Source: a gamma proteobacterium symbiont of Taylorina sp. (lineage in GTDB: Bacteria; Pseudomonadota; Gammaproteobacteria; GRL18). From it: a DNA stretch of 64,000 nt. The stretch is from positions 1-64,000 of the forward strand of contig JAHXIV010000014.1 in NCBI GenBank assembly GCA_025655455.1, read 5' to 3'. Positions 6,188-56,682 of the stretch are shown one piece after another. Positions within the stretch are counted from its first letter, which is position 1. The number at the start of each line of letters is the position of its first letter. A model generated the notes under the pieces. That model did no database searches. It had not been told where the DNA came from and saw only the letters and a list, made by a program, of their open reading frames with translations. The position numbers were made by a program, and so were the translations under genes.

Positions 6188-9100
6188 GTGCGGAAATCAA
6201 TCCTTGCGTGTACAGTGTCTTTACTCATGTCTCCAGTTGCGGCGTGGGCGTTAGGTATGGGGGATGTACAGGTTAATTCATCATTAAATCAGTCGCTTAA
6301 TGCTGAAATTAGAATACACTCCGCTTCTCAAAAAGATATTGAATCCTTGCGCATTGGATTAGCTTCTAAAGATGCATTTTTTCAGGCTGGAATGACCCGC
6401 AATCATCAACTCACAAAATTTAAATTTAATATCATACAAAGAGAGGGTAAAACCTATATTGCCATTACAACACATAAGCCCTTTAGAGAGCCGTATATTG
6501 AACTTTTAATTGAAGCTGAGTGGAATTCCGGACGCTTACTAAGAGAATATACCCTGCTTCTTGATCCCCCTGAATTTATTAATCGCGAGTCACTTCCTGT
6601 TAGAAATGCCGTTGTTGACAGTTCTGCAAAAATTAACCGTGCAGCAAAACAAGCTGATTATTCCTCTTCATCTATGGAATCATTATCTTATGGTCCGACA
6701 AAGCGTAATGACACCTTATGGTCTATTGCCAATAATATGGCTCCTCCAGGCATTTCTGTCAATCAAATGATGCTGGCTCTGTTAAGAGATAATCCTGAAG
6801 CATTTGTTAATAATAATATTAATGAGCTGAAAAAAGGTTATGTGCTACGCATTAAAAATCAGGCAGGTTTAACACAACTGGATCAATTATCTGCAACACA
6901 GGAAGTCAGACAACAATACCAGAGCTGGAAAGATATTAGAGAACAGGAAGTTTCAAATACCAATCTGGTTGATAGAGGGCAACGTACTGATGATGTCAAA
7001 AGTGATGGCAAACTTGAATTGCTGGCATCCGGTAGTTCAGATGACTCAGATAAAATTAATAAAGATGATGAACTCAATGATGAAGCCAAACAGATCAAAG
7101 AGAAGCTGGCTTTGTCTGTAGAGGCTGTTGATTCAGCAACAACAGAAAATCTTGAATTACGGGAGCGTATTAAAGAACTTGAGGCCATTCTAGCGACAAA
7201 ATCATCCCTTATAGAATTAAAAGATGAAAGTCTCGCAGCATTACAACGGCAGATAGAAGCAAAAGATCTGGATATTCCAGATGAGATTGTTAATGATTCT
7301 GAAATTTCAATGGTTGCGGATAATACTGAGACTCTCTACCCCGGACATACTGATCCTGCACTTGTATTAGCAGAAGTTGAGAGACTGGTTTTAGAAAAGC
7401 AAATGGCTGCAGAAGCGGCTAAAGTTGCAGAAGCAGCTAAAGTGCTTGAGGAGGCAGAACTTGCCAAAAAGGCTGAAGCGGAAAAAGCTGCGGCATTAGC
7501 AAAAAAAGCTCAGGAAAAACAAAAAATTATTGCTAAAAAGTCAGTCACCCCAGCGGCCAAACCCAAAGCTGAATTTTATGAAGAAATACCAGAGAAATTA
7601 CTTGGCGAGTATTTACCTTTTACTGCGGGAGGTTTAGGATTACTGGTTGTTTTGCTCATTGCTTTGAGATTTCGTGGTAAAGGCAAAGATGAAAATGATT
7701 TTGAAGAAAGCATTCTGGATAAAAATGGTGCAAAAAACACTGAAAATACTTTTACTGAAAGTATAACGACAACACCTGTTACAGATGATGTTAATAATGA
7801 TAATGAAACTTCCTTCCTGAGTGATTTTTCTTCTGAAAATACTGAAGCCCTGATGCCGGATGATACAGAAGCTGATCCATTATCCGAGGCTGATGTATTC
7901 ATGGTTTATGGTCGCTATCAGCAAGCTGAAGAATTTCTTAAAGATGTGATTATTAGTGAACCTCAGCGTATTGACTTCCAGATGAAACTTCTCGAAGTTT
8001 ATCTGGGTGATAATCAAAAAGATGCATTTATTACACAAGCTGTTCTGATTAAAGATTTAATAGAGCAAAACGATGAGAATATAGCTGTTTCATCTGACTG
8101 GATGACAGTAGAAAGCTGGGCAAAAAAATTAGATATTGATCTCAGTACTTCTGATGTTGATACTACTACTGCAGCCTCAGAATCAGAATCAGTTACAGAT
8201 ACTCCTTCGGAAGAAAATTTAACCGCTGAAAGTAGTGAGCAGGCTGATAATGAAGAATCTCTTGATGATACTTTAGATGAACAGCCTTTGGAAGCTGCTG
8301 AAAAATCACTTGATGACTCTCTTGATAAAGAGTCGGTTGAATCTTCCAGTATGGCAGAAGATGAAATAATTAGTGGAGAAACTGAACCAACAGCGGAAGA
8401 TGTGTTAGATGAACTGGAAGACTTTAATATGGATGAAGAGTTTTCCCTGGATATGGATGACCTGGATGATGAATCTTTTGATTTGGATTCATTTGATATG
8501 GATGATTTCAATTTAGAGGATGCTCTTGATCTTGATCTTGATGATAAGCTCGAAACATCTGTTGATGAAGAAATGCCTGCAGCTGATAATGAATCTCCTT
8601 CTGATTTGGATACAGAACAAACTCTGGAAATGGAAGATGAGATTAATATAGAAATCCCATCTGATGAAGAACTTAATGCAGAAGAAGAATTATCTCTGGA
8701 GCTGGATACAGAAGAGTCTCTGGAAGTAGAAGATGAGATTAATATAGAAATCCCATCTGATGAAGAAGTTAATACAGAAGATGAATTGTCTTTGGAGCTG
8801 GATACAGAAGAGTCTCTGGAAATAGAAGATGAGATTGATATAGACATATCATCTGATGAAGAGCTTAATACAGAAGATGAATTGTCTCTGGAGCTGGATA
8901 CAGAAGAGTCCCTGGAAATAGAAGATGAGATTGATATAGACATATCATCTGATGAAGAGCTTAATATAGAAGATGAATTATCTCTGGAGCTGGATACAGA
9001 AGAGTCCCTGGAAATAGAAGATGAGATTGATATAGACATATCATCTGATGAAGAAGTTAATACAGTAGATGAATTATCTCTGGAGCTGGATACAGAAGAA

Positions 9101-9505
9101 TCTCTGGAAATAGAAGATAAGATTGATATAGACATATCATCTGATGAAGAGCTTAATACAGTAGATGAATTGTCTCTCGATTTGGATATAGATGATATCC
9201 GTGAACCTGAAAGTGAAATGGAATTGGAAGTACCGGCAGTTGATGTTGAATTAGTTGAACCTGATTCAGAAGACGAGGATATTCTTGAACTGGATGATGA
9301 TAGCTTTGATCTGGACACAAATAATGTTGAGGAAGAATTACCGGAAGAAAATGCAATGGATACCAAACTTGATCTGGCAAGAGCCTATATTGATATGGAA
9401 GACATTGACTCAGCCTCGGTTATTTTAACTGAAGTACTTGCAGAAGGGGATGATGATCAAAAATTTCAGGCCCAGGAATTGCAGGATAAAGCTAAAGCAA
9501 AATAA
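6188..9505 (+). CDS. fimV: FimV-like polar hub protein with acidic repeats
   Basis: A 1105-residue inner-membrane protein of the FimV/TspA family, which in pseudomonads organises type IV pili, the cell pole and c-di-GMP-linked motility. Order of parts: signal peptide (1-21), FimV N-terminal domain (about 22-130, ending in TLLLDPPEF), LysM-like peptidoglycan-binding segment (about 175-235), coiled coil and Ala/Glu/Lys-rich stretch, one membrane helix near 476-496, a very acidic cytoplasmic region including six 32-residue repeats (808-999), and the conserved FimV C-terminal TPR-like motif (TKLDLARAYIDMEDIDSASV). The start is GTG at 6188, preceded by GGGAG. It is well above the size of its second homologue at 52.3 kb. 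Confidence 0.93.
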   Translation: MRKSILACTVSLLMSPVAAWALGMGDVQVNSSLNQSLNAEIRIHSASQKDIESLRIGLASKDAFFQAGMTRNHQLTKFKFNIIQREGKTYIAITTHKPFREPYIELLIEAEWNSGRLLREYTLLLDPPEFINRESLPVRNAVVDSSAKINRAAKQADYSSSSMESLSYGPTKRNDTLWSIANNMAPPGISVNQMMLALLRDNPEAFVNNNINELKKGYVLRIKNQAGLTQLDQLSATQEVRQQYQSWKDIREQEVSNTNLVDRGQRTDDVKSDGKLELLASGSSDDSDKINKDDELNDEAKQIKEKLALSVEAVDSATTENLELRERIKELEAILATKSSLIELKDESLAALQRQIEAKDLDIPDEIVNDSEISMVADNTETLYPGHTDPALVLAEVERLVLEKQMAAEAAKVAEAAKVLEEAELAKKAEAEKAAALAKKAQEKQKIIAKKSVTPAAKPKAEFYEEIPEKLLGEYLPFTAGGLGLLVVLLIALRFRGKGKDENDFEESILDKNGAKNTENTFTESITTTPVTDDVNNDNETSFLSDFSSENTEALMPDDTEADPLSEADVFMVYGRYQQAEEFLKDVIISEPQRIDFQMKLLEVYLGDNQKDAFITQAVLIKDLIEQNDENIAVSSDWMTVESWAKKLDIDLSTSDVDTTTAASESESVTDTPSEENLTAESSEQADNEESLDDTLDEQPLEAAEKSLDDSLDKESVESSSMAEDEIISGETEPTAEDVLDELEDFNMDEEFSLDMDDLDDESFDLDSFDMDDFNLEDALDLDLDDKLETSVDEEMPAADNESPSDLDTEQTLEMEDEINIEIPSDEELNAEEELSLELDTEESLEVEDEINIEIPSDEEVNTEDELSLELDTEESLEIEDEIDIDISSDEELNTEDELSLELDTEESLEIEDEIDIDISSDEELNIEDELSLELDTEESLEIEDEIDIDISSDEEVNTVDELSLELDTEESLEIEDKIDIDISSDEELNTVDELSLDLDIDDIREPESEMELEVPAVDVELVEPDSEDEDILELDDDSFDLDTNNVEEELPEENAMDTKLDLARAYIDMEDIDSASVILTEVLAEGDDDQKFQAQELQDKAKAK
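8609..9184 (+). repeat. Six tandem 96-bp repeats inside fimV
   Basis: Exactly 576 bp, six copies of a 96-bp unit encoding 32 residues of the form DTEESLEIEDEIDIDISSDE plus EELNTEDELSLEL. Copies 3 to 5 are nearly identical in DNA while the outer copies have drifted (EINIEIP instead of EIDIDIS), the pattern expected when the centre of an array expanded recently. Repeat number is likely to vary between strains. Confidence 0.95.
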
Positions 9506-12511: not shown

Positions 12512-13906
12512 TTACCATGTATTTTGTGCCAGAATTGCACTGCCTGCGGCAGCTTGCTGTAAAACGGCTGTTTGTACCGGGATGCCGAGTTTGCTTTGTC
12601 TGATGTTTTGCCAAGCTTGATTCAATGCTCCGCCGCCGATGCTTTTAACATGTTTGGGATAGGGTGCACCTAATTCAAGCAAACGCTGATAAGCCATGCT
12701 TTCTATATCTGCCATGCCTTCTAATAATGCCTGAAAAAAAGCAATATCCTGCTCAGGTCTTGGGGTAATTCGCGGTTCTAAAAGATGATCCTGAATTGGA
12801 AAGCGTTCCCCGGCTGATAGCAGAGGATAATAATCAAGATCCAGTAAGCTAAAGTCATTTCCGGCAATGGCTGAATTGAGAACATCAGTCAATTGTGCCA
12901 GTTGTCTGCTGGAGAAAAAATGTTTTAATACCGCACCGCCGGAGTTAGATCCACCTCCTGCTAGCCAGTGATCTCCATAGGGCTGACTATAGACACCGGA
13001 TTGGGGATCAAAAATGGCTTTGTCAGTAATAATCTTCATGACCAAAGTAGAACCTAATGAGGTGATTGCTTCGCCAATATCTTTAGCACCACTTGCTATA
13101 ATGGCTGCTGTACTGTCGGTGGTTCCGGCACAAACTTGAAGTGTTTTGGAAAAGCCAAAATATTGAGCCATTTTGGAGTCAACTTTAGCAATTACCTCAC
13201 CGGGACAAAATACCTCAGGTAAAAGACTGACGGGGAATGCCTGTTTATTCAGCAAAGTGATTAGCCAGTCAGGCCAGCACTTCAATTGTGCATCATAGCC
13301 CATTTTTAAGGCATTATTATAATCACTAAAACCAAAGGTTTGTGTCAGTTTACCTGTAATCCAGTCAGATTGATTCAGCGCATAATAAGCCGGTCTGGAG
13401 TTGGGGCGGTTTTTTTGTTGATTATTATACAGCCAAAGTAATTTGGCAAGACCTGAAGCGGCTCCCCGGGCTGCTGTATTCTTGGGCGCATAACTATCAA
13501 TAATCTGAGCATATTGATGAGCACGCTGATCATGGTACATTAAAGCCTCAGAGCAGGGCAGCCCATCTTGATCAGCAAGTAAAACGGTTCCTGAGGTGCC
13601 GTCAATGGCCAGATGGCTAATACAGGATAAACTCAGATGATTGGAAGTTGATAGTTCTTGTTTCAGCTTAAAAATTACTTTTTCAAAACTATCCCACCAG
13701 TGAACAGGCTTTTGAGACTGACTGACGATATGAGTCCTTGGCCAATGAATTTTTCGCTGCTGTCGCTTTGCAAACATTTTTTCCTGCAAAGAGGCAGTGG
13801 TGACAAATTCATGTTTGATAAGAGACTGAGCAAGAATATGCTGCTGTTTATCCAGCATAACAGCACGGATACCTGATGTACCGATATCAATACCCAGGCT
13901 TATCAT
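12512..13906 (-). CDS. FGGY-family kinase, probably D-ribulokinase, carrying an inserted palindrome
   Basis: A 464-residue sugar kinase: phosphate-binding ISLGIDIGTSGIRAVMLD at the N-terminus, AIDGTSGTVLL near residue 120, AGTTDSTAA, TSLGSTLVMKI, and the C-terminal nucleotide motif SIGGGALNQAW. These match the plant/cyanobacterial D-ribulokinase group (SePSK, AtXK-1), which phosphorylates D-ribulose, better than typical xylulokinases; that call is from remembered family sequences. The protein is about 35-40 residues longer than that group. The surplus sits near residues 30-60 (KHEFVTTASLQEKMFAKRQQ and the following residues), exactly where a dispersed palindromic element (13732-13822) lies in the DNA. 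The gene starts 4 bp after queF. Confidence 0.85.
   Translation of the reverse strand: MISLGIDIGTSGIRAVMLDKQQHILAQSLIKHEFVTTASLQEKMFAKRQQRKIHWPRTHIVSQSQKPVHWWDSFEKVIFKLKQELSTSNHLSLSCISHLAIDGTSGTVLLADQDGLPCSEALMYHDQRAHQYAQIIDSYAPKNTAARGAASGLAKLLWLYNNQQKNRPNSRPAYYALNQSDWITGKLTQTFGFSDYNNALKMGYDAQLKCWPDWLITLLNKQAFPVSLLPEVFCPGEVIAKVDSKMAQYFGFSKTLQVCAGTTDSTAAIIASGAKDIGEAITSLGSTLVMKIITDKAIFDPQSGVYSQPYGDHWLAGGGSNSGGAVLKHFFSSRQLAQLTDVLNSAIAGNDFSLLDLDYYPLLSAGERFPIQDHLLEPRITPRPEQDIAFFQALLEGMADIESMAYQRLLELGAPYPKHVKSIGGGALNQAWQNIRQSKLGIPVQTAVLQQAAAGSAILAQNTW
13732..13822 (+). repeat. Palindromic repeat, copy A (inside the FGGY kinase gene)
   Basis: A member of a dispersed family. In plus orientation: left edge GAGTCCTTGGCCAAT, outer arms ATGAATTT (13745-13752) and AAATTCAT (13805-13812), inner arms CTTTGCA/TGCAAAG around the core AAACATTTTTT, right edge ATGTTTGATAAG. 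It lies wholly within the N-terminal part of the minus-strand kinase and is translated in frame without a stop. Confidence 0.8.
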
Positions 13907-13910
13907 TATT

Positions 13911-14300
13911 TCAGGGCAGTTGGACAGGAATAGGAGCTGTCCAGTTATCTGCCTGATGCTCTGCTATTACTGTGGTATAAATCCCGCCGCGAACATAAAA
14001 TTCAGCTGTAACACGCATAAATCGGGGCTGTGTTGCTCCGATCAGATCAGAAAGCATATCATTGGCCACTTTTTCGTGAAATGCACCTTCTTCGCGAAAT
14101 GACCACATATACATTTTTAATGACTTTAATTCAACACATAGCTTATCCGCAATATATTCTATATGAATGATGGCAAAATCAGGCTGCCCTGTTTTTGGAC
14201 AAAGACAGGTAAACTCCGGGATTTTTATACGAATGGTAAAGTCTCGTTCCGGGCTTGGGTTATCAAAGCATTCAAGCTCTTTTGAGGGTTGTGATGGCAT
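13911..14300 (-). CDS. queF: NADPH-dependent 7-cyano-7-deazaguanine reductase
   Basis: QueF reduces preQ0 to preQ1 in queuosine synthesis. The 129-residue product is the short (type I) form. The catalytic segment [10 protein letters not shown] gives the nucleophile Cys34 and the proton donor Asp41, with the usual seven-residue spacing; [20 protein letters not shown] is the substrate and NADPH binding motif. It heads a tight minus-strand run with the FGGY kinase. A palindromic repeat sits in its upstream region. Confidence 0.95.
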
Positions 14301-14344
14301 AATTAATTCCTAATAAAATATTTAGCGATTGTACACTATTTGAC

Positions 14345-14432
14345 TCTTATCTAACATAAAATTTGTCCTGTCTTTCTTTGCTATAAAAATGTTAGCAAAG
14401 CGACAGCGGCAAGTTTTATTGGCTGATGGCTC
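14345..14432 (-). repeat. Palindromic repeat, copy D (queF-smc intergenic region)
   Basis: Read on the minus strand it has left edge GAGCCATCAGCCAAT, outer arms ATAAAACTTGCC and GGACAAATTTTAT (pairing with one G-T step), inner arms CTTTGCTA/TAGCAAAG around ACATTTTT, and right edge ATGTTAGATAAGA. The inner arm differs from copies A-C (TTTGCA/TGCAAA) on both sides at once, so pairing is kept. It occupies much of the 259-bp gap between divergent queF and smc. Confidence 0.8.
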
Positions 14433-14559
14433 TTATAAGCCAAAAAATACTTTATTAACAGGTAGATCATGATAGATACATTAGGTAAAATACTCTGTTA
14501 TTCACTTTTTTCAACAGCCCAAAATAAAAATTGTTAGCTAAAGGCTATAAAGTAACGTA

Positions 14560-17500
14560 ATGCGCTTAAGTAAAATTAAACTTGCTGGTTTTAAATCTTT
14601 TGTGGATCCGACAGTCTTGTCATTCCCCAGTGATCTGGTGAGTATTCTGGGGCCTAATGGTTGCGGAAAATCTAATACAATTGATGCGGTACGTTGGGTT
14701 TTAGGTGAAAGTTCAGCAAAAAATCTGCGTGGCGAATCCATGACCGATGTGATCTTCAATGGTTCTTCCGGTCGTAAGCCCGTGGGGCAATGTATGGTTG
14801 AACTCATTTTTGATAATTCTATTAATAAGCATGCAGAGAATGCTATTACTGGTGAATTTGCACAATATAATGAAATCTCTGTTAAAAGAACGGTGAATCG
14901 TGATGCAAAATCTCAGTATTATCTGAATAATATTCGTTGTCGCCGGCGTGATGTCACGGATCTTTTTCTTGGTACTGGTCTTGGACCAAGGAGTTATTCA
15001 ATTATTGAGCAGGGTATGATTTCCCGTCTTATTGAATCCAAACCGGAAGAGCTACGTGTCTATATTGAAGAAGCAGCAGGGATTTCAAAATACAAAGAAC
15101 GTCGCAGAGAAACAGAAAATCGTATTCGTCACACACGGGAAAATCTTGCACGCCTGGATGATATCAGACTGGAACTGGATAAACAGCTGACTCACCTACA
15201 ACGTCAGTCTAAAACAGCACAGCGTTATACAGAGTTAAAAAAACAGGAACGTTTGATCAAAGCTCAGCTGCAGGCTATCCGCTGGGATAGTATCGATAAA
15301 AAAGCCGGCCAGTCAGATACTATTGTTGCAGAAAAAGAAATAGCACTTGAACAACTGATGGCTGAGTTAAGATCTATAGAGGCAGGTATTGAAGAATCCA
15401 GAGAACTGCACATTGATGCGAATGAATCTTTTAATTCTATTCAGGGACAGTTTTATCAAATAGGTTCTGATATTGCCCGTGTTGAGCAGGCTATCAGTCA
15501 TGCAAAAGATAAATCTCAACAATATCAGGATGACCTGGAACAGGCAGAACAATCCTACAAAAATATTAAAAGTCATCTATTAGAAGATGAAGAAAAGCTG
15601 GAATCTTTTACCAGTCAACTGGCAGAAATTGAACCGGAATTTGAACAAAGTAAAGCACTGGAAGAACACTCTGCACAAATTCTTCAGAATTTTGAAGCAT
15701 CCATGCAGGATTGGCAATTGCGTTGGGATGAGTTTAACCAACAGGCTCAGGAACCCACACAAACAGCTCAGATTGAACGTTCTAAAATAAGCCAGCTGGA
15801 ACAAAATGTTTCCCGGCAGGAAGGTAAAATCGAAAAATTGCAGGATGAATTACAGCAGTTTTCAACAATATCATTAGATGAATCACTTAATAATCTTCAG
15901 CATGAAATTACTGAATCTGAGAAAATGACTCAGGATCTTCAACAGCAATTAAATCAGGAGCGTGAATCTATTCAAAATCTGCGCGATGCTAATCATCAGT
16001 TAAACAATCAACTGGATAATTATCGTAGTGATTTACAGTCATTTAAGGGTAGAAAAGCCTCTCTGGATGCTTTACAACAAGCTGCCCTGGGTAAGAACGA
16101 TCAATTTCTTAAACAATGGATGGATGAGCAGGGTATTGTTGACAAGCCCCGTATTGCTGAACAAATTAGTGTTAAGCAAGGTTGGGAGCAGGCAGTGGAA
16201 TGTGTGCTGGGAGATTATCTTGAGGCCAGTTGTGTAGAGCAAATAGAAACTTTGTCACCTCATTTTGAGACACTTCAACAATCAAATTTAACATTGATTG
16301 AAACCTCTGAACTGGATTATGAAGTAGAAGAAATTAATTCAGTCATTTTTCTGCCGTTGCTGCAAACTTTTATTGATGGACAGACTGATTTGCTTAAACC
16401 TTGTTTAAATGGTGTTTATGCAGCGGATAATTTAGAAACAGGCTTGGCTCATAGAAAAAAATTGCATCTTAATCAATCTATTATCACTAAAGAAGGGATA
16501 TGGGTTGGACCAAACTGGCTGCGCCTGCTCAATGATTCTGATCAGAAAAGCGGTGTCCTTGCCAGAGAGCAGGAAATTAATATGCTGAGTGAAGAATTAC
16601 AGCAGGCACGGCAGCTTGTTGATGATTTAGATCTGCAAATTGAACAGGGACGTAGCGGCTTACGTGAAGTAGAACACAATCGTGAGAATTTGCAAACTGA
16701 ATTTAATTGTCAAAATCGTAAGCTGTCTGATTTGCGCAGTCAGTTAAATACCAAACAATCCCGTCTTGATCAGATGAATCAGCGTGAAGTCAGAATTCAT
16801 AGTGATATCCAGGAGATCAAACAGCAGATAGAAGAAGAAAAAATTCTGACTGAAGAATCAACTGAACGCCTGCATACTGCTTTGGAAATGATTGAAGAAT
16901 TTGCTTTACAGCGTGAAGAGTTGACACAGGAACGTGAAAGCCATAAAGAACAACTGGAAGAAAGCCGTATTAAGGCCAGAGAGGATCGGGAACAGAGCCA
17001 TGCACTTGAAATCCGTTTACGCGGCTTCAAAACAGAATTAAATTCAACTGAACAGGGTATGACCCGTTTAAAAGGTCAATTAGATCAGGTCAGTATCAGA
17101 CGTAAAAATTTATTGGATCAACTTAAAAATAAAGAGGATCCGGTAGAGCAATTGAATGAAGAACTGGAACTGCATCTGGAATCCCGTATTCAGGTAGAAG
17201 AAAAGTTAATAGAAGCACGTCAACTGGTTGAAGAACTGGATCAAAGTTTGCGGGAATATGATCATCAACGTGCCCGGATTGAACAGAATTTGCTGGCACT
17301 GCGCACAGAACTGGAAAACGTTCGCATTAATTCTCAGGAACTCATTGTTCGTCGCGAAACATTAAAAGAACAGATAGATGAAACAGGCTTTTCACTAGAG
17401 GAATTGTTTATTAGTATTCCTCAGGAAGCCAGTGAAGTGTTGTGGAAATCTCAGGTGGATGATTTGATACAACGTATCCAGCGCCTTGGCTCAATCAATC

Positions 17501-18099
17501 TTGCTGCTATTGATGAATTCAAAGAGCAATCGGAACGAAAAAATCATCTGGATGCTCAAAACAGTGATCTGATTAAGGCTTTGGATACTCTGGAAGGGGC
17601 TATTGCAAAAATTGACCGGGAAACCAGAACACGCTTTAGAGAAACTTTTGATAAAATTAATTCAGGTGTACAGCGCTTATTTCCGAAACTATTTGGTGGT
17701 GGTCACGCCTATCTTGATTTGACCGGTGATGATTTACTCAATACTGGAGTGACTATCATGGCGCGTCCACCCGGCAAACGAAATAGTACCATTCACTTAT
17801 TGTCGGGGGGTGAAAAAGCGATGACAGCAGTGTCATTGGTTTTTGCAATTTTTGAATTGAATCCATCGCCGTTTTGTATGCTTGATGAAGTGGATGCTCC
17901 TCTGGATGAAGCTAATGTGGTTCGTTTCTGTGCTATGGTGAAAGAAATGTCTCACAATGTACAATTTATTTATATTACACATAATAAAACTACCATGGAA
18001 ATGTCCGATCACCTTTGCGGTGTGACAATGAAGGAACCCGGAGTGTCCAGAATCGTTGATGTGGATATTCATGAAGCAGTTGAAATGGTGGAAGCTTAG
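14560..18099 (+). CDS. smc: Chromosome segregation/condensation protein SMC
   Basis: An 1179-residue SMC ATPase that compacts and segregates the chromosome with ScpAB. Walker A is GPNGCGKS (residues 31-38); two long coiled coils (about 170-500 and 670-1000) flank a globular hinge (about 510-660); the C-terminus carries the ABC signature LSGGEKAMTAVSL and Walker B FCMLDEVDAPLDEANV. Length and order are those of bacterial SMC. zipA follows after 50 bp, the usual gammaproteobacterial arrangement. No strong ribosome site precedes the ATG. Confidence 0.97.
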   Translation: MRLSKIKLAGFKSFVDPTVLSFPSDLVSILGPNGCGKSNTIDAVRWVLGESSAKNLRGESMTDVIFNGSSGRKPVGQCMVELIFDNSINKHAENAITGEFAQYNEISVKRTVNRDAKSQYYLNNIRCRRRDVTDLFLGTGLGPRSYSIIEQGMISRLIESKPEELRVYIEEAAGISKYKERRRETENRIRHTRENLARLDDIRLELDKQLTHLQRQSKTAQRYTELKKQERLIKAQLQAIRWDSIDKKAGQSDTIVAEKEIALEQLMAELRSIEAGIEESRELHIDANESFNSIQGQFYQIGSDIARVEQAISHAKDKSQQYQDDLEQAEQSYKNIKSHLLEDEEKLESFTSQLAEIEPEFEQSKALEEHSAQILQNFEASMQDWQLRWDEFNQQAQEPTQTAQIERSKISQLEQNVSRQEGKIEKLQDELQQFSTISLDESLNNLQHEITESEKMTQDLQQQLNQERESIQNLRDANHQLNNQLDNYRSDLQSFKGRKASLDALQQAALGKNDQFLKQWMDEQGIVDKPRIAEQISVKQGWEQAVECVLGDYLEASCVEQIETLSPHFETLQQSNLTLIETSELDYEVEEINSVIFLPLLQTFIDGQTDLLKPCLNGVYAADNLETGLAHRKKLHLNQSIITKEGIWVGPNWLRLLNDSDQKSGVLAREQEINMLSEELQQARQLVDDLDLQIEQGRSGLREVEHNRENLQTEFNCQNRKLSDLRSQLNTKQSRLDQMNQREVRIHSDIQEIKQQIEEEKILTEESTERLHTALEMIEEFALQREELTQERESHKEQLEESRIKAREDREQSHALEIRLRGFKTELNSTEQGMTRLKGQLDQVSIRRKNLLDQLKNKEDPVEQLNEELELHLESRIQVEEKLIEARQLVEELDQSLREYDHQRARIEQNLLALRTELENVRINSQELIVRRETLKEQIDETGFSLEELFISIPQEASEVLWKSQVDDLIQRIQRLGSINLAAIDEFKEQSERKNHLDAQNSDLIKALDTLEGAIAKIDRETRTRFRETFDKINSGVQRLFPKLFGGGHAYLDLTGDDLLNTGVTIMARPPGKRNSTIHLLSGGEKAMTAVSLVFAIFELNPSPFCMLDEVDAPLDEANVVRFCAMVKEMSHNVQFIYITHNKTTMEMSDHLCGVTMKEPGVSRIVDVDIHEAVEMVEA

Positions 18100-37131: not shown

Positions 37132-38121
37132 TCATTCAGCCACATTTTTTTGGTTGACGACTCTTAATGTTGGATAATAAGATGAGTCTAACTCATAATA
37201 TTGATTTTGTTTATCAAAAGGTGAAAGAAAAGAAATTTTATAAGCAGTCAGACATAAGTCATATCCATCGGCTTTTCCTGTTCCATAGAGTCGATCGCCA
37301 ACGACAGGATGACCGATATGTGATAGATGTTGTCTAATCTGATGTTTTCGTCCGCTTAAAAGCCTGATATCAACCAGACTGGCACTGTCAATTTGTTGAT
37401 TCATTATACTATTATCAAACATAAACTTGCCTGCCGCCTTATTTGCAGGTGAAAATGTTTGCAAAACGTCAGCAGGCAAGTTTATTGGCCGATGGCTCTG
37501 ATCCAACACCTGACTATGCAAAATTTTTGTTTGTGCCTGCTTTTTATCCAAAGGTTCATCCAGTATAAACGGTAAGACTTTTTCATCAGGGAAATGACCA
37601 TGAATAATCGCTTTATAATATTTCTTAATTGCCCCTTCGGCAAATAGCCGGGATAAAGCTGCAGCGGCATTTTTTGAATGTGCAATGAGCATAAGACCGC
37701 TGGTTGCTTTATCGAGCCTATGAACAATGAAGGCATTTCTTTGCGGCTTTAAATGACTTTCAACCCAACGATAAAGGGTGCAGTGATCACCATATTTGCT
37801 GCCTTGTGACAACATGCCTGCGGGTTTGAACCAGAGACTGTAGTCGTCTTTATCAGCAATAAGTTCTGCCTCAATCGGGATCTGATTAAAGATTCCTTCA
37901 TCATAGTAACAATGTAATATTTGCCCCTGACGAAGTTTCTTTTTAACACGACGGATTCTTTTTGTCGTATTGTTGTGTGTCAGCCAGACACTGCCATTTT
38001 GCATGATTTGTTTTATTTTTTGCCGTGAAAAATGGCAGTGTTCTGCCAATAAACTAATGGCACTTATGTCATTTTGCATGACATTCAGATGCAGCTCAAA
38101 TTGTTTTTTTTCTATTGGCAT
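37132..38121 (-). CDS. RluA-family pseudouridine synthase carrying an inserted palindrome
   Basis: A 329-residue synthase with an N-terminal S4 RNA-binding domain (about 22-75) and the RluA catalytic domain: VHRLDKATSGL (Asp137), KYYKAIIHG, and LVDIRLLSGRKHQIRQHLSH. Between about residues 205 and 240, normally a short turn, there is a surplus segment (RPINLPADVLQTFSPANKAA and the following residues) encoded exactly by a palindromic repeat (37412-37498). The frame is kept and the catalytic motifs are intact, so the enzyme may work. The target RNA cannot be told from sequence. Confidence 0.88.
   Translation of the reverse strand: MPIEKKQFELHLNVMQNDISAISLLAEHCHFSRQKIKQIMQNGSVWLTHNNTTKRIRRVKKKLRQGQILHCYYDEGIFNQIPIEAELIADKDDYSLWFKPAGMLSQGSKYGDHCTLYRWVESHLKPQRNAFIVHRLDKATSGLMLIAHSKNAAAALSRLFAEGAIKKYYKAIIHGHFPDEKVLPFILDEPLDKKQAQTKILHSQVLDQSHRPINLPADVLQTFSPANKAAGKFMFDNSIMNQQIDSASLVDIRLLSGRKHQIRQHLSHIGHPVVGDRLYGTGKADGYDLCLTAYKISFLSPFDKQNQYYELDSSYYPTLRVVNQKNVAE
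37412..37498 (-). repeat. Palindromic repeat, copy C (inside the RluA-family gene)
   Basis: The cleanest member: perfect 14-bp outer arms ATAAACTTGCCTGC (37421-37434) and GCAGGCAAGTTTAT (37472-37485), inner arms TTTGCA (37442-37447) and TGCAAA (37460-37465). Read on the minus strand the edges are GAGCCATCGGCCAAT and ATGTTTGATAA. It is read in frame by the gene, in the opposite element orientation to copy A in the kinase gene. Confidence 0.85.
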
Positions 38122-52336: not shown

Positions 52337-54358
52337 TTAAGCCCGGGTTTGTTGATATATCTTTTCAATCTGCTGACTAAATTCACTATCGCTGTTTAAC
52401 AATTGTGATATTTTTTTCAGATGGATTTTAAAATCATCGGCTCTACCGGTATCTGAATAAAGCTCAAATAACTTGGTATGCAATGATTTGTCATAAGGTG
52501 ATTTTTCTAATTCAGCCTGTAATAATTTCTCAGCACCATCATACTTACCATAAGCAATAAAAGTATTGACTTCACGTAAGACGGCTTCATTTTCTAAAGC
52601 TGGCTTTCCAGATGAAAGACTTTCTACTGACATAGGATCTTCTACAACTTCATCTAAATCCAAATCCAAATCAAGTTCAATTTCAGTATTATTATCTCCA
52701 GCATTTGTTTGTGCTTGCGTTTCAGTCGATACAATAATATTTTTATTAAAGTAGTCAGAGAATTCTGAATTTCCTTTTGCACTATCCTCGTTATCAGATT
52801 TAACCTGAATTTTCGAAGAAGTTTTTTCTGAAGGGGCTATATGATTATTTGCTGTACTGGCCTGTGAAACATCTTTCTTAGTGTTGCTGCGTTTTTGCAT
52901 CATAATAATAACGGCAAAAAGCAGGATAATACTCACTAAAAATATGAATAAAAATTCTGGATAAGCCATTATTTGCTGAAAAAATGACTGGCCTTTATTT
53001 GCAGCTGAATAGTTTTGAGACTCAATGGCTAATGGTTTAGAGTTTTGTCTGGAATCTATGGCCTGCCTGTTTAATTGATCTGATGCTTTTAATGATTGAG
53101 CTGCTTGTTGTTCTAATAAACGGGTGATACGATCGATTTTATTACTAAGATCTTTATTTTTTTCATCGAAATTATTGAGTTTCTGAGTTAACTCTTCTAT
53201 CCGGTTGCTTAATTGGGTATTCTCTTTTTGTAATATGGTAATTGTTTCATGTGATGTTTTTAATGTCCTGGCCATTAATTCAAGCACATCATCGTCTACG
53301 TGTTTAGCCAATAATTCTTCTGAGGGTGGAACAATTTTTAGTTGTGGGGTATCAGAGCCAGTACTTGAGGGCTCTTTATCCGGAGTTGAGGACTTATCTT
53401 CCAGAGTTGAGGACTCTTTATCCGGGATTGAGGACTTTTCTTCCAGAGTTGAGGACTCTTTATCCGGGGTTGAGGACTTTTCTTCCGGAGTTGAGGACTC
53501 TTTATCCGGGGTTGAGGACTCTTCTTGAGATGTTAAAGACTGATGCTCAACTACTTCAGGTGTTTTCTTGTCAGCAGGCCTGGTTTTGCTCAGTGCTTGT
53601 TTCTTTGTTTTTGGTTTGCTTGTCTGCTGACTCAGCTGTAGAATTTCTTCTTTGGAAGGGATGGTTAATGTATAACCCTGTTTTAGTAAGTTAATGTTAT
53701 TATTGATAAATGCATCGGGATTAAGGGAAAAAAGTGCCTTCATTGTCTGGAAGGCGGTTACTGATTTATCTGGTCTGGCGCGTTGGGCAATGTGCGAAAG
53801 TGTATCTGAACGCTGTACGTAATAAGAATCACTTTGAATCGGATTAGAGCTGGAACGAGAAGTATAACTTTGTTTCCTTTTTCGATGGCTTGTTACTGAT
53901 TTCTTCTGTTGTTGTGTTGTTGAACTTTTCTTTTTAGTTACTTTCTTTTTTTTTAATACAGGTGGGTCAAGAAAAAAAGTATATTCGCGATTAAGATGAA
54001 TATTTTTCCAATTTAGATCAGCAATAAAAGTAATATAAAGTTCCCTAAATGGTTTCTTACTGCTTAAATCAAGATAAACGGAACCATCCGCTCTTTTTAT
54101 CGCTTTAAATTTAACTTGGGTAAATTCTCTGCTTCTCTCCAAATCGGATTGTCTGTATACCTCTTTGCTGGCATTTCTTACAATCAAGTCATCAATATTA
54201 ATCGATCTGGAATCAAGCAGTTCAATTTGTAATCTTAAAGGTTCATTGATATTTGAAAGAACTTTAATAGCACCAAAGCCAAGTGTAAAACCCTTTAGCG
54301 GCAGCAGGAGTATTGTTGTTATCAGGGTTATCAGGATAAAAAAACGTCTTGTCTTCAT
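52337..54358 (-). CDS. Second, shorter FimV-like protein
   Basis: A 673-residue paralogue of the 6.2-kb FimV: signal peptide, FimV N-terminal domain (about 28-130, FRELYITFIADLNWKNIHLN, ending FFLDPP), LysM (about 180-240), a Ser/Thr/Lys/Glu-rich linker with seven 7-residue repeats, coiled coil (about 350-410), membrane helix (about 450-475) and a TPR-like C-terminus (EVNTFIAYGKYDGAEKLLQA). It lacks the long acidic repeat region. Two FimV-type proteins in one genome suggest two polar or envelope complexes. Confidence 0.88.
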   Translation of the reverse strand: MKTRRFFILITLITTILLLPLKGFTLGFGAIKVLSNINEPLRLQIELLDSRSINIDDLIVRNASKEVYRQSDLERSREFTQVKFKAIKRADGSVYLDLSSKKPFRELYITFIADLNWKNIHLNREYTFFLDPPVLKKKKVTKKKSSTTQQQKKSVTSHRKRKQSYTSRSSSNPIQSDSYYVQRSDTLSHIAQRARPDKSVTAFQTMKALFSLNPDAFINNNINLLKQGYTLTIPSKEEILQLSQQTSKPKTKKQALSKTRPADKKTPEVVEHQSLTSQEESSTPDKESSTPEEKSSTPDKESSTLEEKSSIPDKESSTLEDKSSTPDKEPSSTGSDTPQLKIVPPSEELLAKHVDDDVLELMARTLKTSHETITILQKENTQLSNRIEELTQKLNNFDEKNKDLSNKIDRITRLLEQQAAQSLKASDQLNRQAIDSRQNSKPLAIESQNYSAANKGQSFFQQIMAYPEFLFIFLVSIILLFAVIIMMQKRSNTKKDVSQASTANNHIAPSEKTSSKIQVKSDNEDSAKGNSEFSDYFNKNIIVSTETQAQTNAGDNNTEIELDLDLDLDEVVEDPMSVESLSSGKPALENEAVLREVNTFIAYGKYDGAEKLLQAELEKSPYDKSLHTKLFELYSDTGRADDFKIHLKKISQLLNSDSEFSQQIEKIYQQTRA
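53372..53518 (-). repeat. Seven tandem 21-bp repeats in the second fimV-like gene
   Basis: A 147-bp block encoding seven heptapeptides that alternate SSTPDKE and SST(P/L)EEK. Neighbouring units match closely in DNA, so unit number may vary. It lies in the linker between LysM and coiled coil. Confidence 0.9.
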
Positions 54359-56468: not shown

Positions 56469-56485
56469 GTCTGGAATATAGATTA

Positions 56486-56576
56486 GAGTCATCAGCAAAT
56501 AAAATTATTCCGCTGTTGCTTTGCAAACATTTTTACGTTGCAAATAAGACAGAGGTATAGTTTTATGTTTGATAAG
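56486..56576 (+). repeat. Palindromic repeat, copy B (RDD-purL intergenic region)
   Basis: In plus orientation: left edge GAGTCATCAGC, outer arms ATAAAATTATTCC and GGTATAGTTTTAT (pairing with few mismatches), inner arms TTTGCAA/TTGCAAA around the core ACATTTTTACG, right edge ATGTTTGATAAG. It sits between divergent genes, so it is in the leader of one or both. Confidence 0.8.
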
Positions 56577-56682
56577 GATTAAAAAGATATATTTTACTTT
56601 TTTTCTACAATTATAAATAGTCACTATCATAACTCTTTGTTAAAATAATAACTCATTTTTATGTCATACAAGAGAGAAGTCA

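Follow-up and report, generated by a model that had tools for sequence, protein, structure and literature searches.

The window analyzed here comprises 64,000 nucleotides of a contig from an uncultured marine gammaproteobacterium, the genome of which amounts to 4.51 Mb in 104 contigs. On its minus strand, a gene for an FGGY-family kinase forms an open reading frame (ORF) with an ATG start and no internal stops, and this frame reads through one of four copies of a palindromic repeat that an nhmmer profile detected in the window (Table 1). This copy, here called copy A, comprises a unit of 90 bp (30 codons) with an ATAAGAG-like left end of 7 bp, is an imperfect hairpin (single-stranded DNA fold z = -3.0 against dinucleotide shuffles), and is read by the kinase gene on the minus strand as residues 28 to 60, SLIKHEFVTTASLQEKMFAKRQQRKIHWPRTHI. 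The original prediction of a palindromic element translated inside this kinase, with the frame left open, was thus correct, although the boundaries that it gave (13732 to 13822) lie slightly inside the extent of the profile match. The N-terminal phosphate-binding motif GIDIGTSG occupies kinase residues 5 to 12, upstream of copy A, so that a working kinase needs translation through the element.

Table 1. Copies of the palindromic element in the 64-kb window and the genes that host them
Feature	Position	Strand	Evidence
FGGY-family kinase, D-ribulokinase-like, 464 aa, element at residues 28-60	12512..13906	-	ORF; Pfam FGGY_N and FGGY_C
Copy A, 97 bp, subfamily I	13728..13824	+	nhmmer profile; covariance model, 113 bits; hairpin; frame
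Second copy, between divergent queF-like gene (13911-14300, -) and smc (14560-18099, +)	14344..14436	-	nhmmer; covariance model; ORFs
Third copy, subfamily II, 94 bp, in frame in RluA-family gene, residues 207-238	37409..37502	-	nhmmer; frame
RluA-family pseudouridine synthase gene, 329 aa, host of third copy	37132..38121 (end includes inferred stop)	-	Pfam PF00849, TIGR00005
Fourth copy, intergenic or at 5' edge of ORF, upstream of 1312-aa ORF	56482..56578	+	nhmmer; covariance model; ORFs

Repeats of other kinds are found in the two FimV-like genes of the window. Six direct 96-bp repeats (8470 to 9237) encode acidic 32-residue repeats in a FimV/LysM-like protein of 1105 aa (6188 to 9505, plus strand), and 21-bp tandem repeats (53323 to 53574) encode ESSTPDK-type repeats in the second FimV-like protein (52337 to 54358, minus strand).

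The kinase and its orthologs

The segment encoded by the element was absent from the orthologous kinases of 11 same-genus genomes and of the more distant genomes that covered the region; the two element-richest congeners are incomplete, their kinase genes were unrecovered, and they fall outside this comparison. It was also sought, as a segment without the DNA palindrome in unrelated genera, among 80 kinases from named genomes of many genera in which the region was covered, and it was not found. The statement that relatives lack the segment therefore held for every ortholog examined that covers the region. Between the same anchors, our kinase has 53 residues, those of the genus have 37 to 48 and most others ca. 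32, and the genus kinases carry 12 to 16 variable residues of their own where copy A sits. Removing copy A would leave ca. 23 residues between the anchors, which means that the insertion came with, or preceded, the loss of ca. 14 to 16 loop residues. As far as can be read from these alignments, copy A has replaced ca. 14 to 16 residues of the genus's variable LPxSQxxYS loop and is not a clean insertion. Here, the original prediction has to be amended, since it foresaw an added segment of about 26 to 30 residues and a clean gap in orthologs at about residues 30 to 60. A clean gap, of 29 residues, was seen in HisC and RibD (see below).

The best solved relatives of the kinase were 5htr (439 aa, from a plant, annotated as a putative xylulose kinase) and 5htn (436 aa, a probable sugar kinase), which we take to be plant and cyanobacterial D-ribulokinases. 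They are 25 to 28 residues shorter than our protein and not 35 to 40, as had been proposed. Their alignments start at about kinase residue 64 or 94; upstream of this, there is just a short match, at residues 2 to 29 of the N terminus. The AlphaFold2 model of the kinase (mean pLDDT 92.8, pTM 0.90) has a low-confidence segment at residues 31 to 60 (pLDDT 51 to 61, with a low-confidence helix at 37 to 48) between a strand at 24 to 31 and a helix at 67 to 89. The loop expected from structure prediction was thus present at low confidence, and the model is consistent with a flexible loop on the surface. An unrelated kinase of Halochromatium sp. A10 (L110, 3001 to 4365) has a different, low-complexity insert of ca. 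37 residues in the same N-terminal loop, with 70 residues between the anchors, which suggests that this loop tolerates insertions generally.

A repeat family with two subfamilies

A DNA search of the genome with the element gave 55 matches, with up to 92% identity over ca. 95 bp. A covariance model derived from 39 copies raised this number to at least 148 matches, almost all full length (at least ca. 145 at an E value of ≤1e-3), a count to be read as a lower bound. Most copies measure 90 to 98 bp. In subfamily I, the consensus has 97 bp (ATAAGAGCCCTCGGCCAATGAATTTTTCGCCGCTGTCGCTTTGCAAACATTTTTTCCTGCAAAGAGACAGTGGTGACAAATTCATGTTTGATAAGAG) and the unit 90 bp (30 codons), while subfamily II copies have 94 bp and a unit of 87 bp (29 codons), with arm sequences that differ yet still pair. 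In a joint alignment, the two subfamilies fall out of register and RNAalifold overlooks the central stem, so stem covariation was scored by pairing within each subfamily. Scored in this way, paired changes across copies support the stem (at columns 25/75, for example, 20 copies have TA and 8 have CG). The inverted repeat is internal, and both ends of the element bear ATAAGAG-like direct repeats, the 97-bp consensus having the ends ATAAGAGCC and GATAAGAG. For this reason, tandem copies share one end, as seen, for instance, on contigs C53, C5, and C2, where the overlap is the shared ATAAGAG end. Usually, at least one reading frame of the element is free of stops.

Across the order, the element was present in 13 of 24 genomes, with ca. 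140 matches here, 34 and 25 in two congeners with incomplete genomes, and 0 to 6 in the others. Among 229 genomes drawn, after thinning, from the class Gammaproteobacteria, only this genus scored. The relatives are uncultured Gammaproteobacteria, many of them from marine sediment or animal-associated metagenomes. An Rfam search with the window and the element returned nothing above gathering thresholds (the sole weak match was a chance microRNA model, E = 0.16), and the search for a source of the element in phage and plasmid collections, together with a pattern scan of viral contigs, gave no match.

Copies translated inside other proteins

Nearly all copies were examined with their flanks, and those inside an ORF of at least 230 codons were classed as embedded, which was the case for 24 of 147. 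Domain searches identified as hosts MutL, HisC, RibD, aminopeptidase N (pepN), an RluA-family pseudouridine synthase, RsmJ, an esterase, a DsbA-like protein, PrmC, a BarA-like hybrid kinase, a YbbP-like permease, a MenC-like enzyme, a CHAD protein, an AAA helicase, a NUDIX protein, an SLT transglycosylase, a YkuD protein, and the FGGY kinase. At the sequence level, host ORFs and catalytic motifs were intact. In 17 of the 24 embedded copies, the plus strand of the element is read in the same frame, giving (x)SPRPINSPAVVLQTSSPANKTVGEFMFDKS or close variants, while a second frame is used by five others and a third by two, copy A and the copy in the NUDIX gene. Copy A thus differs in strand and frame from most embedded copies, and the kinase is not a typical example. 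The N-terminal part of PrmC contains a translated tandem pair of copies (contig C29, 39721 to 39901), indicating that an insertion was duplicated in frame. Judging from these ORFs, solitary copies are translated in at least 19 intact genes, where they would add 29 to 30 residues at tolerant sites, and in-frame insertion has affected at least 20 ordinary protein genes, the kinase among them.

Relatives provided the corresponding empty sites. HisC has an insert of exactly 29 residues with respect to 12 of 12 orthologs of the genus, and RibD has a 29-residue insert with respect to a congener (G001) and several other relatives, some of which show loop-length variation. The peptide was absent from the RluA-family protein of 10 relatives, including G001, and from RsmJ in all relatives with covering sequence, in which the loop is of variable length. 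The solved relatives of HisC and RsmJ also lack the insert; in the alignment of RsmJ with 2pkw, for instance, the query breaks from residue 165 to 198 while the target moves from 161 to 163. Two congeners, G001 and G006, also carry copies that encode this same peptide in frame in other genes, and in G001 the hosts are a LolA-like protein, an HrpA-like helicase, and MutL. The inserts in the MutL of G001 and in our MutL are at different sites, each protein lacking the insert of the other, so that these were independent insertions into the same gene. MutL, hit twice among congeners, is a mismatch-repair protein. With in-frame copies in ca. 20 genes genome-wide and 29-codon gaps in hisC and ribD, the original comparison with the palindromic elements of Rickettsia has been borne out.

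Reading frame and selection

The added unit, taken as the element length minus the 7-bp end, was divisible by 3 in 22 of 23 embedded copies versus 45 of 112 other copies (Fisher's exact test, P = 3.8e-7), a contrast that is subject to ascertainment bias because frame-breaking copies shorten the very ORF by which a copy is classed as embedded. Given that this definition favors in-frame copies, each solitary copy was excised in silico, which offsets the bias in part. Among 110 solitary copies, 19 lay in intact ORFs, for 5 a long ORF appeared only upon excision, and the remaining 86 fell in neither class, whereas 78.5% of random window positions fell inside such ORFs. The five candidates for disruption were discarded: one was a DsbA copy missed by the length threshold, one (the strongest) lies at the 3' end of a serC-like gene, for which the copy supplies the stop codon (contig C39, 8031 to 8125), one involved assembly Ns, and two were near ORF starts. 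Virtual excision thus revealed no clear frame-breaking insertion into a gene among the 110 solitary copies. Together with the strong depletion of copies in genes, this is the pattern that purifying selection on random insertions would leave.

Variation among embedded copies amounted to 0.166, 0.238, and 0.223 at codon positions 1 to 3. These similar rates, with no excess at third positions, give no sign of selection conserving the peptide sequence. The same open frame was found in 17 of 22 nonembedded 94-bp copies, and its openness is therefore a property of the family. A sublineage with CTC/GAG arm pairs, encoding the peptide INSPAVVLQTSSPANKTVGEF, had 7 of 9 copies in genes, compared with ca. 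12 of 34 among the other 94-bp copies.

Ends of the element and possible mode of movement

The left end is a degenerate ATAAGAG (A 63%, T 80%, A 62%, A 74%, G 89%, A 98%, G 92%), the right end is well conserved (GATAAGAG), and the flanks are otherwise near random. Comparing left and right 7-mers within copies gave 5.09, against 5.10 after shuffling; this lack of correlation means that there is no signature of target duplication. The empty ribD site in G001 is GGATAAGAA, which resembles the end of the element. Taken together, both observations point to insertion at an ATAAGAG-like target matching the element's own end.

We propose that a nonautonomous palindromic element inserts roughly at random at ATAAGAG-like sites, that purifying selection would then remove the copies that break genes, and that open, in-frame copies tolerated in loops would persist as nearly neutral baggage, perhaps with some benefit to the host. 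The element may be mobilized in trans, and the hairpin and the lack of target duplication weakly suggest a single-strand mechanism, for example by a Y1 (HUH) transposase of the IS200/IS605 or RAYT type; a recombinase with its crossover at the 7-bp end would also fit. Four Y1_Tnp matches were found in the genome, and no element lay within 1.5 kb of any of the 16 Y1_Tnp matches checked. An autonomous parent was looked for next to the Y1 transposase genes and was not found. With no element adjoining these genes, the involvement of a Y1 mobilizer is a conjecture. An integron attC-like site was discarded by inspection, as the consensus lacks the inverted GTTRRRY core.

Discussion

Very probably, the family is a mobile palindromic element, nonautonomous and likely selfish, that is able to reside within protein genes. 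For the kinase, one could think instead that a variable surface loop has lengthened naturally in this lineage and only resembles the repeat, and this loop does vary (between anchors, 37 to 48 residues in the genus kinases and 70 in that of Halochromatium). However, dozens of other genomic copies match the segment's DNA at 87 to 92% identity over its whole length and with both ends intact, an end-to-end match that refutes such lengthening, and there are exact insertions of the same element in other hosts, leaving this explanation a practically negligible probability. The element might also be transcribed within genes and remain untranslated, through translational bypassing or removal from the RNA, with the ATAAGAG repeats as take-off and landing sites. 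The mitochondrial byp hairpins, which are flanked by matching codons, cause translational bypassing, and a hairpin between short direct repeats that share a frame has the anatomy of such an element. Bypassing, however, requires neither stop-free frames nor multiples of three, both of which are kept by 22 of 23 embedded copies, and the lack of clear frame-breaking copies in genes also speaks against either process; we regard them as very unlikely.

That the element spreads and is kept as a functional peptide tag, for a putative use in localization, interaction, or stability, would explain why 17 of 24 embedded copies share one peptide and its frame, why the CTC/GAG-arm sublineage is mostly intragenic, and why mutL was hit twice independently. 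But the functions of the hosts are unrelated, the frame is equally open in most nonembedded 94-bp copies, third codon positions show no excess of variation in embedded ones, and the peptide of copy A is another one, read from the opposite strand, so a tag seems improbable. Intergenic copies could act mainly as RNA hairpins (putative terminators or mRNA stabilizers), like REP and ERIC, the genic copies being rare by-products. The 86 of 110 solitary copies outside long ORFs, and the copy forming the 3' end of the serC-like gene, agree with such a role, while the family matches no Rfam family; the role is compatible with translation inside genes, and as the main explanation we hold it to be possible but on the unlikely side. 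A little less probable still is that one lineage has adapted to life inside proteins, with coding insertion as its main niche: the unit in multiples of three, the open plus-strand frame, and the mostly genic sublineage would then reflect a peptide shaped for tolerance by the host.

Among known systems, the Rickettsia palindromic elements (RPEs; Ogata 2000, 2002, cited in PMC10969869 and PMC2229807) are dispersed palindromes of ca. 100 to 150 bp, both genic and intergenic, with reported terminal inverted repeats. Our family is like them in inserting in frame into genes that are unrelated and often have housekeeping functions, in encoding a conserved open frame of its own, and in its additional intergenic copies, but it differs in having direct-repeat ATAAGAG ends instead of terminal inverted repeats, a unit that is shorter, at exactly 87 or 90 bp, and an ATAAGAG-like target. 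It is also set apart by its occurrence in a genus of Gammaproteobacteria (marine and sediment metagenome-assembled genomes) and not in Rickettsiales. In anatomy and behavior it fits the RPE type, and we regard it as a separate family in another class, not an RPE. The protein-coding palindromes of Wolbachia and repeats that have become part of Methanocaldococcus jannaschii genes (cited in PMC2996958 and PMC2229807) are likewise in-frame coding palindromes outside Rickettsia, the likeness being one of description and the taxa being different. REPs have 20 to 40 bp and a GTAG or CGTC tag, often flank RAYT genes, and are in some cases intragenic (PMC3733652), and ERIC, YPAL, and RU-3 are small hairpin repeats with gene fusions (PMC2229807). 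Our element resembles all of these as a small hairpin that is mostly intergenic and at times in frame in genes, including repair genes, but, unlike the REP/RAYT system, its 97-bp consensus has no GTAG/CGTC end tag and no copy lies beside a Y1 transposase gene. It also differs from a MITE, as its extreme ends are ATAAGAG direct repeats and not terminal inverted repeats and there is no target site duplication. PARCELs are tandem palindromic coding arrays in membrane and surface proteins (PMC2996958); they share the palindromic coding unit within protein genes, whereas here the inserts are mostly single and in unrelated proteins. Coding palindromes are thus already known as a kind, and this family is an additional one.

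A 2024 review (PMC10969869) called a mechanism like that of Rickettsia in other prokaryotes only "conceivable." Coding palindromes have been described as a feature of Rickettsia, and the present family adds a case with many copies, from an uncultured lineage of Gammaproteobacteria whose genomes are fairly large. Its many species with empty sites would allow tests of site choice, of the rate at which genes are broken, and of the neutrality of the peptide. For annotation, length anomalies of MutL, HisC, RibD, and other proteins in this genus are element insertions and not new domains.
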